Below, piece after piece: positions 7,951 to 37,740 of a stretch of DNA of 47,544 bases. Made by a program: the position numbers and the translations under genes. The notes under the pieces are model-generated. The model worked only from the letters and a program-made list of their open reading frames with translations, did not search any database and was not told the origin of the DNA. The DNA is from an uncultured Ruminococcus sp. (GTDB taxonomy: Bacteria > Bacillota > Clostridia > Monoglobales > Monoglobaceae), in the NCBI GenBank assembly GCA_902797885.1, contig CADBUP010000050.1, positions 1 to 47,544 of the forward strand, in the 5' to 3' direction. Numbering within the stretch: the first letter of the stretch is position 1; the number at the start of each line of letters is the position of its first letter.

Positions 7951-8061
7951 AGATTTTTCCTGTGCTTCCGCAATCCGACACAAATAAAGCCGCGAGAGAT
8001 AAACCCCTGTGCCGAAAACATCACCTCTTTGCGCAGTGAGCCTGTGCATTTTACAAGATAA

Positions 8062-8262
8062 CATCAAAGCAGGTCTTCTGACTTATACCATATGAAAATC
8101 TTATCTTCGCGCCTTATCTCCGCCTTCTCGGTTTCCCAATGACCGGCTTTCACCTATGGATATAAAGCTTTGGTACATACAGCGGCTGGTACCGTCCGGG
8201 ACTTTCACCCGATTCCCTTTTCACCGGCCATGCCCAAACGGCACAGCCGGCACTTTGTACGA
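8062..8262 (-). promoter_or_regulatory. Cobalamin (B12) riboswitch
   Basis: Read on the minus strand this region shows the hallmark cobalamin aptamer segments in order: GGGAAUCGGGUGAAAGUCCC, then a GGUACCAGCCGCUGUA segment (the CCGCUGU core), GGUGAAAGCCGG, and the closing B12 box AGUCAGAAGACCUGC near 8067-8084. This is the standard order for the AdoCbl/Cbl riboswitch family. It lies within the transcript of the SLH/DUF4430 gene and upstream of a terminator. Confidence 0.95.
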
Positions 8263-8278
8263 ATATTCAGTTTATAAC

Positions 8279-33189: not shown

Positions 33190-36100
33190 TTATTTTATAT
33201 CTGAAACCGCAATCGGCTCAAGTTCCGCTATATTAAACTTCTGTTCCATTACCTCGGCGAGCGCGGCAACCGTATCCTGAGATGTCAGAATATTGACCGA
33301 ACACTCGGACGCTGTCCTGCGCATCTTAAAGCCGTCGCTTTCCTTATCATTGCCCTTTTTAGGAATATCGATTACCAAATCGCACATTCCGCTTCTTATT
33401 ACGTCAAGGACATTAGGTACGCCCTCGCTTATTTTCTTTGCTCTCTGAACCGAGTAGCCATGCTTCTCAAGGAAGTCCGCCGTTCCCGTTGTCGAAATAA
33501 ATCTACAGCCGAGTTTATCGAACTTCTCTATAATCGGGAGGAAGGCCTCCTTGTCACGGTCACAGACCGTAAGAAGAACGTTGCTTCCCGCTCTCGGTAT
33601 ATCAAATTCAGCCGCAACGAAGCCTTTATATAGAGCTTCAAGATAATTTCTTCCCACGCCCAATACTTCACCGGTCGAACGCATCTCGGGGCCTAAGCTT
33701 ACCTCAACCATAGGAAGCTTCTTAGTTGAGAATATCGGAACCTTAACCGCAACCATCTCAGGTTCGGGGTTGATTCCCGAGGCATATCCCATATCAGCAA
33801 GCTTTTCGCCCAGCATCACTCTTGTTGCAAGCTCGATTACCGGAACACCGGTAACCTTTGTTATATAAGGAACAGTTCGGCTTGAACGCGGATTTACCTC
33901 AATAATATAGAGGTCGCCGCGGAATTCGATAAACTGAATGTTTATCATCCCTATAACCTTAAGCGCAACGGATATACGCCGCGTCACGTCCATTATCTTC
34001 TTTTTCATCTCATCCGAAACATTCTGCGGCGGATAAATCGAAATACTGTCGCCCGAGTGTACGCCGGCACGTTCAAGATGCTCCATTATACCGGGAATAA
34101 ACACATCTGTCCCGTCACAGATTGCGTCAACTTCAAGCTCCCTTCCGTTTAAATAACGGTCTATCAGAACAGGATTATCCTTATCCTTTTTGAATGCGTC
34201 CTCAAGATAGATGGTCAGCTCCTGTTCATTATGAGTAATTTCCATTCCCTGACCGCCGAGAACATATGAGGGACGCACAAGAAGCGGATAGCCGAGACGC
34301 TCCGCCTCTGCTATACCTTCTTCGGTTGTCCAGACAGCCTTGCCCTTCGGGCGTTTTATGTCAAGTTCCTCAAGCAATTCGTCAAACTTCTCTCTGTCCT
34401 CCGCCTCATCAATCTGCTTCGGCCGCGTTCCGAAAATCGGAACATTCATTTCATCCAGAAAGTTAGCCAGCTTAATCGCCGTCTGACCGCCGAACTGAAG
34501 AATAACTCCGTCCGGCTTTTCAAGCTCGATTATACTGAGTACGTCTTCCTCGGTCAGCGGTTCAAAATAAAGCTTGTCCGATGTATCAAAATCGGTGCTG
34601 ACCGTCTCGGGGTTATTATTTATGATAATCGTTTCGATTCCGAATTTTTTGAGTGCGACTATACTGTGAACGCTGCAATAATCGAACTCGATACCCTGTC
34701 CGATACGAATAGGACCGGAACCGATAACCAAAACCTTCTTTTTGTCCGACGGCTCTGCTTCATTATACTCGTCATAGGTCGAGTAATAATACGGCGAAAC
34801 CGCCTCAAACTCACCGGCGCAGGTATCAACCATCTTATAAACCGGAAGGATTCCGTGACTTTCCCTGTACTTTCTGACCTCTGCCGCTGTACAGCCGATA
34901 AGCTGTGCAATCCCTTGATCGGCAAAGCCCATAACCTTATATTTTCTCATAAGCTCAGGGGTCAGAGTGTCCAGCCTATACTCCTTAAGTTCTTCTTCCA
35001 TATCAACGATATTCTTAATCTTTTTAAGGAAAAACGGATCCATACCGGTAATCTGTGAAATTTTTTCTATTCTGTAATCGCGGCGGATAAGCTCGGCGAG
35101 TTCAAACAAACGCTCATCATCCGGGGTCTTAATTCTGCCTCTCAAAACCTCTGATGATTTTTCCTTTGCCGCCTCGCGCTCTAACGTAAACTGTTTTATT
35201 TCAAGAGACCGTACACCCTTAAGCAAGGCCGCTTCAAAGCTGTTGCCTATCGCCATAACCTCACCCGTCGCCATCATCTTTGTTCCGAGAGTACGCTTCG
35301 CGCCATAGAACTTATCAAACGGCCATTTGGGGATTTTTATTACACAATAGTCAAGCGCAGGTTCAAAGCAAGCATAGGTCTTTCCCGTAACCGCGTTCTT
35401 AATCTCATCAAGGCGATATCCAAGCGCAATCTTCGCCGCAATCTTCGCAATAGGATAACCCGTCGCCTTTGACGCAAGCGCCGATGAACGGCTGACTCTC
35501 GGATTAATCTCGATAACTGCGTATTCAAAGCTGTTGGGGTTAAGCGCAAACTGAACATTGCAGCCGCCCTTTATCTCGATTGAATTAATTATATCAATCG
35601 CCGCCGTACGAAGCATCTGATACTCTTTGTCGGCCAGCGTCTGGGCGGGCGCAACAACTATGCTGTCACCCGTGTGAACTCCAACCGGATCAACATTCTC
35701 CATACTGCAGACCGTGATGCAGTTTCCGTCACCGTCCCGGATAACTTCAAACTCGATTTCCTTCCAGCCTCTTATACACTTCTCGATAAGAACCTGTCCG
35801 ACACGCGACAGGTGGATTCCCTGTGCGGCAATCTCGCCGAGTTCGCCCTCGTCCTCGGCTATGCCGCCGCCTGTTCCGCCCAATGTGTACGCCGGTCGGA
35901 CGATTACCGGATAACCGATTTCCTTTGCGAATTTCAGCGCACCCTCAACCGTATTCACGATTTCGCCGCGAATCATAGGCTGATTCGTCCGCTCCATAAG
36001 CTCCTTAAAACTTTCTCTGTCCTCGCCTTCTTTAATTGACTCTATGGACGTTCCTATAACCCTTACGTTATACTTATCGAGAATTCCTTTATCATATAAC

Positions 36101-36402
36101 TCGCATGAAAGGTTAAGACCTGTTTGACCGCCCATACCCGCTATAAGGCTGTCGGGACGTTCCTTCGCTATTACATTTTCAAGCGTCTGAACCGTAAGCG
36201 GCTCTATATATGTGCGGTCTGCCGTTTGTGCATCTGTCATTATTGTTGCGGGATTGCTGTTTACCAGCACAACCTCAACACCCTCCTCGCGCAGAGCCTG
36301 ACAGGCTTGTGTTCCCGAATAGTCAAACTCTGCTGCCTGACCAATGACTATGGGGCCCGAACCTATAACCAACACTTTTTTTATACTGTTATCTCTTGGC
36401 AT
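33190..36402 (-). CDS. carB: Carbamoyl phosphate synthase large subunit
   Basis: 1070 residues, synthesising carbamoyl phosphate from bicarbonate, ammonia (channelled from CarA) and two ATP. Two homologous ATP-grasp halves: the first starts [22 protein letters not shown], the second [24 protein letters not shown] (about 545). The C-terminal ~130 residues (from [13 protein letters not shown]) are the MGS-like allosteric domain that binds effectors such as UMP/ornithine in homologues. Length is normal. The ATG follows carA by 12 bp with an SD (AAGGAGG) that overlaps the carA stop codon region, so the two are coupled. Confidence 0.98.
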
Positions 36403-36414
36403 ATTCCTACCTCC

Positions 36415-37470
36415 TTACGCTAAAAAATCGTCGAATATGTTTCTTGTATCAAGCGGTCCCGGGCTTGCCTCAGGGTGGAATTGTACGCTCTGAACGTCTA
36501 TCGACTTTCCGCGGATTCCTTCACAGGTACCGTCATTTACATTTATATATGAAACCTCAAGTTCCTCGGGGAGATCATCTACAATATAGTTATGATTCTG
36601 TGAGGTGATTGAAACTCTTCCCGTTTTTAGATTCTTAACCGGCTGATTCGCTCCATGATGACCGAACTTAAGCTTTCGCGTCTTACAGCCCATCGCCAGT
36701 CCGATAACCAGATGCCCCATGCATACCCCGCGTACGGGGAGCTTTCCGATAAGCGCCCTTGCCGTTTCAACAGTCTCGGGAATATCTCCAGGGTCTCCGG
36801 GTCCGTTTGAAATCATAAGAAGGTCCGGATTAACCGCCATAACCTCGTCAGCCGTGGCATTATACGGAAAAACGGTAATCTTACAATCACGCTTTTTAAG
36901 CTCGCGCAGGATTCCCTTTTTCACGCCGGCATCAATAAATGCGACGTGTTTTCCCGTGCCGGGAATTGTGTAGACTTCAGGAGTGCTTACACGTTTTACT
37001 ACATCCGAATTGTCAAGACTATCAAACCGTTCTTTTAACGCACGATCCGATAACATTCCTATTTCGGTTGTAATTATTCCTTTCATACAGCCGCTTTCGC
37101 GGATTATTCTTGTCAGGGCGCGTGTATCGATTCCTTCAAGACCCACAACTCTGTTTTGCCTTAAAAAACCGTCCAAATCCATTTCGGTTCTGAAATTATT
37201 CGGATAATCGCACTTTTCTCTTACAATAAGTGCGGTAAGAGCCGGCTTATCAGATTCCATATCCTCAAGATTGATTCCGTAATTACCTATAAGCGGATAA
37301 GTCAAAACCACCATCTGTCCGCAAAACGATAAATCGGTAATCGCCTCTTGATAACCTGTCATCGAAGTTGAGAAAACGACTTCGCCGACAACATCATTTA
37401 CATAACCGAAAGCCTTGCCCTTAAACCTCATTCCGTTTTCAAGAATAAGTTCAGCTGCCTTTGACTGCAT
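36415..37470 (-). CDS. carA: Carbamoyl phosphate synthase small (glutaminase) subunit
   Basis: 351 residues. The N-terminal CPSase_sm_chain domain (about 7-135) is followed by a class I glutamine amidotransferase domain with nucleophile Cys250 and catalytic His332/Glu334 (FHPEASPGP). The usual CxGHQ reads CMGHL here, so the Gln that contacts the substrate glutamine in E. coli (Gln273) is Leu254. The NHGF loop reads NHNY (292-295). The catalytic triad is intact, so activity is expected, but substrate binding may be altered. SD AAGGAG precedes the ATG. It lies behind a leader peptide and attenuator at 37531-37740. Confidence 0.96.
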   Translation of the reverse strand: MQSKAAELILENGMRFKGKAFGYVNDVVGEVVFSTSMTGYQEAITDLSFCGQMVVLTYPLIGNYGINLEDMESDKPALTALIVREKCDYPNNFRTEMDLDGFLRQNRVVGLEGIDTRALTRIIRESGCMKGIITTEIGMLSDRALKERFDSLDNSDVVKRVSTPEVYTIPGTGKHVAFIDAGVKKGILRELKKRDCKITVFPYNATADEVMAVNPDLLMISNGPGDPGDIPETVETARALIGKLPVRGVCMGHLVIGLAMGCKTRKLKFGHHGANQPVKNLKTGRVSITSQNHNYIVDDLPEELEVSYINVNDGTCEGIRGKSIDVQSVQFHPEASPGPLDTRNIFDDFLA

Positions 37471-37530
37471 AAAATCACTCCTTCAAAATTTAACTCTCGT
37501 AAAATGTTCTCGCCCGAATACTCTGACCGG

Positions 37531-37568
37531 CAAAAACAAAGGGCTATTGAACAAAAGTCCAATGCCCT
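37531..37568 (-). terminator. carAB leader attenuator terminator
   Basis: Minus strand: GGGCAUUGGAC (37557-37567) pairs with GUUCAAUAGCCC (37541-37552), with one bulge and a G-U pair, followed by UUUGUUUUU. It begins about 7 nt after the stop codon of the leader peptide, so a ribosome at that stop would cover its left arm. Confidence 0.8.
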
Positions 37569-37574
37569 ATTCTA

Positions 37575-37679
37575 TCACTTTTTTAAAAATAATTCGCCCT
37601 TGCAATAGTAGGCCGAGGCAATAAAAAAGTCGAATTTGGAAACGAATAAAGCGTTATTATCTTTAACCGCGATTATCAT
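37575..37679 (-). CDS. carAB leader peptide (34 residues)
   Basis: ATG at 37679, TGA at 37575-37577. The SD AAAGGAG (37689-37695) lies 9 nt upstream of the ATG, as good as that of any gene here. The 34-residue product (MIIAVKDNNALF at the start, GELFLKK at the end) has no recognised domain and is rich in Phe, Lys and Ala, with no Arg or His. The coding RNA contains UUUUUU (codons 18-19) and UUAUUUUUAAAA near its end. Only the act of translation and the position of the ribosome may matter. Placed between the carA promoter and an intrinsic terminator, it fits a pyrBI-type UTP-sensitive attenuator. Confidence 0.7.
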   Translation of the reverse strand: MIIAVKDNNALFVSKFDFFIASAYYCKGELFLKK

Positions 37680-37711
37680 TTTTCAAATCTCCTTTCTGTT
37701 TGCTTCTTTAT

Positions 37712-37740
37712 ATTTTAACACGATATGGCTGTTTAGTCAA
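37712..37740 (-). promoter_or_regulatory. carAB promoter
   Basis: Minus strand: -35 TTGACT (37735-37740), 17-bp spacer, -10 TAAAAT (37712-37717) with extended TGT. The -35 overlaps the stop of the preceding gene. The start near 37705 lies about 26 nt before the leader peptide ATG. Confidence 0.82.

Follow-up and report, generated by a model that had tools for sequence, protein, structure and literature searches.

In Escherichia coli pyrBI, low UTP makes RNA polymerase pause in a U-rich leader, and the trailing ribosome blocks formation of the terminator; control of this type requires the ribosome to follow RNA polymerase closely. In the Bacillota, PyrR attenuation is the usual arrangement and a pyrBI-type design is unexpected, and attenuation in Bacillus subtilis works mainly through proteins and riboswitches. 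The E. coli carAB operon has two promoters, P1 and P2, and UTP acts on it via reiterative transcription at P1 (PMC6245113). Termination in E. coli drops from ~90% to under 10% when a ribosome is at a stop codon 5 bp from the terminator, and uncoupling of translation abolishes this effect (PMC4824070). In B. subtilis, according to the account of Johnson et al. 2020 given in the review PMC7858274, transcription outruns translation.

The window (the whole stretch of 47,544 nt of contig CADBUP010000050.1 that was analysed) carries in front of carA a leader that is probably a transcription attenuator of pyrBI type, coupled to translation. Its parts and the genes that follow it are these:

37712–37740, minus strand: sigma-A-type promoter TTGACT-17-TAAAAT (promoter scan; position and spacing conserved in leader-bearing relatives)
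37689–37695, minus strand: Shine-Dalgarno sequence AAAGGAG of the leader ORF (sequence reading)
37575–37679, minus strand: leader ORF, MIIAVKDNNALFVSKFDFFIASAYYCKGELFLKK*, 34 codons plus TGA, Phe- and U-rich and Arg-free, with its ATG at 37679 (translation; frame comparison)
37620–37629, minus strand: U-rich tract 1, CUUUUUUAUU, a candidate RNA polymerase pause site (sequence; U enrichment)
37594–37621, minus strand: hairpin UUGCCU...AGGGCGA, a possible pause hairpin just 5' of U-rich tract 2, predicted −9.5 kcal/mol (folding)
37578–37594, minus strand: U-rich tract 2, AAUUAUUUUUAAAAAAG, ending ~10 nt before the terminator stem (sequence)
37531–37568, minus strand: intrinsic terminator with stem 37568–37540, AGGGCATTGGAC-TTTT-GTTCAATAGCCCT, −15.5 kcal/mol, and U tail 37539–37531, UUGUUUUUG (folding, covariation)
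36415–37470, minus strand: carA, carbamoyl-phosphate synthase small subunit, with its ATG at 37470 (NCBIfam TIGR01368, 436 bits)
33190–36402, minus strand: carB, carbamoyl-phosphate synthase large subunit, in one operon with carA (NCBIfam NF003671, 1540 bits)

A sequence-only reading of this DNA had described a promoter, Shine-Dalgarno sequence, Arg-free open frame of 34 codons containing two U-rich tracts, TGA and terminator ahead of carA, and all of these were located on the minus strand, with zero Arg codons in the translated ORF; its stop-terminator gap of 7 nt holds if the outer A-U pair of the stem is left out, and is 6 nt when that pair is counted. The promoter, whose −35 shares bases with the final codons of the preceding gene, matches the consensus at 10 of 12 positions and has a TG preceding its −10; the region holds 3 promoter-like matches where 1.3 are expected, so the match is weak when taken alone, but it is conserved in relatives. 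The 5' UTR of the leader is ~25 nt long (the distance from the −10 to the start codon is ~30 nt in most relatives) and thus could accommodate neither an aptamer nor a PyrR loop. An Rfam search of the leader at gathering and relaxed thresholds returned chance matches only and no riboswitch. Elsewhere in the window, a cobalamin riboswitch (RF00174, 84 bits) lies at 8051–8272 on the minus strand. The terminator hairpin, whose stem is bulged, is unlisted by a generic terminator scan and is supported by folding and by covariation over 12 sequences: among the 12 terminators of the source's family 93% of the cells are paired, and there are 14 double-change cells versus 4.6 in shuffles. Folding of the leader beats 198 of 200 shuffles (z −2.5). 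A hairpin resembling the one at 37594–37621 is present in a sister species, and a search for a pause hairpin general to all leaders found none. Since a terminator-like hairpin lies 11 nt past the carB stop, carAB looks like a two-gene unit.

Relatives were found by carA. Within the source's GTDB family, promoter, short ORF and terminator stand in constant order before carA in 19 of the 19 species with a carA of this type. A second Clostridia family, f16, has the same layout in 32 species (27 leaders and 5 read later); among its genomes with readable upstream sequence, only one genus (G059, G466) has lost it. It was not seen in order-level relatives or at loci of f50, f63 and f79 that have a related carA; at several of the loci lacking it, carA lies directly behind another pyrimidine gene. 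A leader attenuator was also looked for at the pyrB-C-F-K-D operon of the source genome, and none was found. In many relatives the gap between terminator and carA is ~15–60 nt, and a further promoter there lacks space because carA follows so closely. This spacing bears on the idea that the short ORF is a separate gene for a small protein, complete with a terminator, and that carA is transcribed from another promoter. Promoter, Shine-Dalgarno sequence and terminator would indeed make up a complete small transcription unit, but besides the missing promoter space the ORF invariably accompanies carA in two families and its peptide is not conserved, and we regard this explanation as most improbable.

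Thinning of near-identical species left 31 leaders from both families for the analysis of the reading frame (the ORF finder had a minimum of 20 codons, and the start of one leader, L162, was moved by hand to the next ATG). Frame 0 is open from the start codon into the terminator stem in 31 of the 31, versus 1 and 4 for the +1 and +2 frames. In all 31 the stop codon falls from −10 to +45 nt relative to the terminator stem, where dinucleotide shuffles lead one to expect 6.9 ± 2.2 leaders, and over 46 of 46 leaders it lies from 6 nt before to 42 nt after the start of the stem. The ORF start is the first ATG past the promoter that is preceded by a Shine-Dalgarno sequence in 28 of the 31 thinned leaders, and it is TTG in the remaining three. 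Frame and hairpin are conserved together, not the hairpin without the frame, the pattern that the sequence-only reading had named as speaking against it. That reading had also looked to related leaders for conserved stop-terminator spacing, which they have, and for synonymous-biased conservation of the frame, which turned out weak (83 of 308 in-frame substitutions are synonymous versus 61 expected). As judged from these alignments, frame, length and U-content are conserved and the peptide is barely constrained, a near-absence of constraint that would follow if only the act of translation matters, as a pyrBI-type device predicts.

A leader ORF that is translated up to a terminator could also be a trp/his-type sensor of arginine or of some other amino acid, in which ribosome stalling switches alternative hairpins; arginine synthesis too draws on carAB, the leader does contain an ORF, and Phe is frequent in it. 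Arg codons are, however, absent from the source's leader and from 14 of the 31 thinned leaders, there is no conserved run of any amino acid, and no antiterminator pairing was found, since the terminator's 5' arm pairs upstream no better than it does in shuffles (mean z +0.32; 0 of 31 below −2). The terminator of such attenuators lies >20 bp from the leader gene (PMC4824070), whereas here it abuts or overlaps the ORF. Amino-acid sensing is thus very unlikely.

The leaders contain 39% U versus 23% in carA of the same genomes (0.39 and 0.23), and their richest 12-mer holds 9.5 U versus 5.7; the U tracts are modest in the source's family and striking in f16. Phe makes up 12.5% of leader residues versus 4.7% in carA, and the Phe codons UUU and UUC occur in a ratio of 111:14 in the leaders versus 263:249 in carA. 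The 111 UUU codons observed compare with 65.6 predicted from the carA of each genome, a comparison that is partly confounded in that carA, as a well-expressed gene, may carry a codon bias of its own. This UUU excess at Phe codons indicates a preference for U itself, over and above one for phenylalanine. E. coli pyrL (NC_000913), measured with a similar script, has 25 nt between −10 and ATG, a U fraction of 0.34 and a Phe fraction of 0.14; its richest 12-mer holds 7 U and ends 14 nt before the stem, and its stop lies 47 nt after the stem start. The pyrBI-like design first proposed for the carAB leader is supported: its anatomy agrees with pyrL measured alike, U is enriched at synonymous sites, and there is no antiterminator.

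We propose that the leader operates as follows. Transcription would begin ~25 nt before the short leader ORF. When UTP is low, RNA polymerase would slow in the U-rich part of the ORF, so that the first ribosome catches up; on translating to the stop codon at the stem base, this ribosome would cover the 5' arm, the terminator would be unable to fold, and carAB would be transcribed. When UTP is plentiful, the polymerase would outrun the ribosome, the terminator would form, and carAB would be shut down. That a ribosome prevents termination here is, on the comparison of sequences, very likely. That the signal is UTP-sensitive pausing is likely, judging from the U bias, the target pathway and the analogy with pyrBI. 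The same terminator occlusion could serve a translation-dependent attenuator that senses another signal than UTP, for example the supply of ribosomes or of NTPs in general, or the speed of translation. All of the evidence for a leader translated up to its terminator fits such a device equally well, and just the U-richness and the target gene indicate UTP; it would, however, leave the U enrichment at synonymous sites and the pyrimidine target without a ready explanation, and we judge it unlikely.

Short stop-to-terminator distances are taken as a mark of uncoupling. Among ordinary genes of the window, short distances of this kind are 8, 11, 13, 16, 34, 38, 49 and 74 nt. Given these distances and the uncoupling in B. 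subtilis, coupling at the carAB leader would depend on the pause, and the U-rich pause may restore coupling locally. Counting against the pyrBI-type reading are the uncoupling in B. subtilis, the modest U tracts in the source's family, the absence of a general pause hairpin, and the presence of an encoded PyrR.

The pyrR gene is indeed present in the source genome (221 bits), where it adjoins a uracil permease gene, and in most relatives; it was undetected in six leader-bearing genomes of the source's family, of which most are incomplete and one is 93% complete (G001, G003, G004, G006, G008 and G014), and in several f16 genomes. The genome search that the sequence-only reading had proposed for pyrR and its RNA sites thus found the gene and no RF00515 element. 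None was found in the source genome or in the searched leader-bearing genera of its family, and the same search was positive in B. subtilis and L. lactis. An evident PyrR loop in the leader was the other feature that the sequence-only reading had named as speaking against it, and its failure to recognise one was borne out by Rfam and pattern searches of the leader; over the carA leaders of the source's family the loop pattern gave one match (L014), which lies in unrelated upstream sequence outside the leader. No PyrR loops were seen before the pyrR-pyrB operon or the uracil permease gene of both leader families. Two other features were noticed at these loci. The pyrR-pyrB operons of both leader families (L203–L224) have a recurrent unusual promoter, TAGACAA ~17 nt before TATAAT, and are without a PyrR loop or attenuator. 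Before the uracil permease gene and pyrR of the source genome (L114:6290–6410) TTGTCTTTAAAGAGCGATGCGGGACATCGGCAAGACGA may form a hairpin, and a GC-rich terminator-like hairpin comes after it; the PyrR loop is unmatched there.

PyrR-dependent attenuation through a divergent PyrR site, which would be the usual Bacillota mode, is made conceivable by the pyrR gene in the source genome and most relatives and by the canonical PyrR loop that stands before the carA leader ORF in Clostridiaceae-like relatives. Against it are the absence of RF00515 from the source genome and the searched leader-bearing family genomes, a ~25-nt 5' UTR that is too short, the absence of an antiterminator, and several leader-bearing genomes, mostly incomplete, in which pyrR was undetected. 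Taken together these points make it quite improbable. As far as the sequence can be read, PyrR is not absent from the genome; it appears only to be unused via a recognisable loop at the carAB leader.

The canonical PyrR loop, UUGGUCC-NGNGAGGCCAGAAAGGAG, was found before carA in family f45, which we take to be Clostridiaceae-like, and in single genomes of f74 and f80. The 3' side of this loop contains the Shine-Dalgarno sequence of a short ORF, and the ORF runs into the terminator in f45 and f80; under a strict first-ATG rule, 15 of 20 f45 leaders are open into the terminator versus 3.4 ± 1.6 expected, and the other frames give 1 and 6. Leaders upstream of carA in which a PyrR loop overlaps the Shine-Dalgarno sequence of a short ORF, mostly one that runs into the terminator, are L136–L146, L173–L195, L263, L266, L267 and L269. 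In two genomes with PyrR loops the carA leaders (L141 and L137) have a start-stop element, ATGTAG and ATGTGA respectively, a few nt before the start of the leader ORF. If PyrR were to hide the Shine-Dalgarno sequence, it would act by stopping leader translation, and a PyrR loop over the Shine-Dalgarno sequence of a leader ORF is possibly a hybrid of PyrR and leader-peptide attenuation, of which no description was found in the literature searched. Antiterminator pairing is weakly favoured in the PyrR-loop leaders (mean z −1.0; 6 of 23 below −2), so classic PyrR attenuation is also a possible mode for the Clostridiaceae-like loop leaders. A tentative reading, which we stop somewhat short of favouring, is that the carAB leader across Clostridia is one cassette, in which a leader ORF extends into a terminator, and that the sensor of this cassette has been swapped: UTP-sensitive pausing in two families and a PyrR loop that hides the Shine-Dalgarno sequence in the Clostridiaceae-like ones. 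If so, both versions would need ribosome and polymerase to be coupled, in a phylum for which the model organism shows no such coupling.

Across two Clostridia families the carAB leader emerges as a conserved attenuator, and its anatomy appears pyrBI-like as far as sequence allows; an open-literature search found no description of a pyrBI-type leader before carAB in Bacillota. If the pyrBI-type reading is true, a conserved leader of this type in ~50 Clostridia species would mean that nucleotide-sensitive pausing can enforce coupling in Bacillota, and the leader would be a natural reporter for measuring coupling there. It would also offer an explanation of pyrimidine control of carAB where PyrR is missing or is without a recognisable RNA site.

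Several known systems share parts of this design. The His leader peptides before hisS/hisZ in bacilli and the antibiotic-induced leaders of B. subtilis bmrB and yxjB are likewise cases of ribosome-mediated attenuation in Bacillota, but the former sense histidine and the latter a stalled antibiotic-bound ribosome, not UTP as proposed here (PMC2965389, PMC4191407, PMC6851288). The Polynucleobacter carA motif is also a conserved leader element before carA; unlike the present leader it is an extended hairpin at the carA ribosome site, and a leader ORF is unreported for it (PMC8632094). Control of carAB in E. coli concerns the identical operon and UTP matters there too, at P1, but it is exerted at initiation, with a 5'-GUUUGC start, several DNA-binding proteins and no attenuation (PMC6245113). 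PyrR attenuation of the B. subtilis pyr operons (RF00515) resembles the carAB leader in terminating transcription before pyrimidine genes in Bacillota, and differs in that it relies on a protein that binds RNA, on a loop for that binding and on an antiterminator; the carAB leader lacks both of these RNA elements. The differences from pyrBI of E. coli and Salmonella are that the leader controls carAB and not pyrBI, that its host is in the Bacillota, that its ORF mostly stops at the terminator stem or within it and not, as in pyrL, 47 nt past the stem start, that its U bias is stronger, and that a U run that could serve UTP-dependent slippage was looked for at its transcription start and is absent. 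With pyrBI (pyrL) it has in common a short 5' UTR, a U- and Phe-rich leader ORF, a terminator within reach of the ribosome, and a pyrimidine gene.
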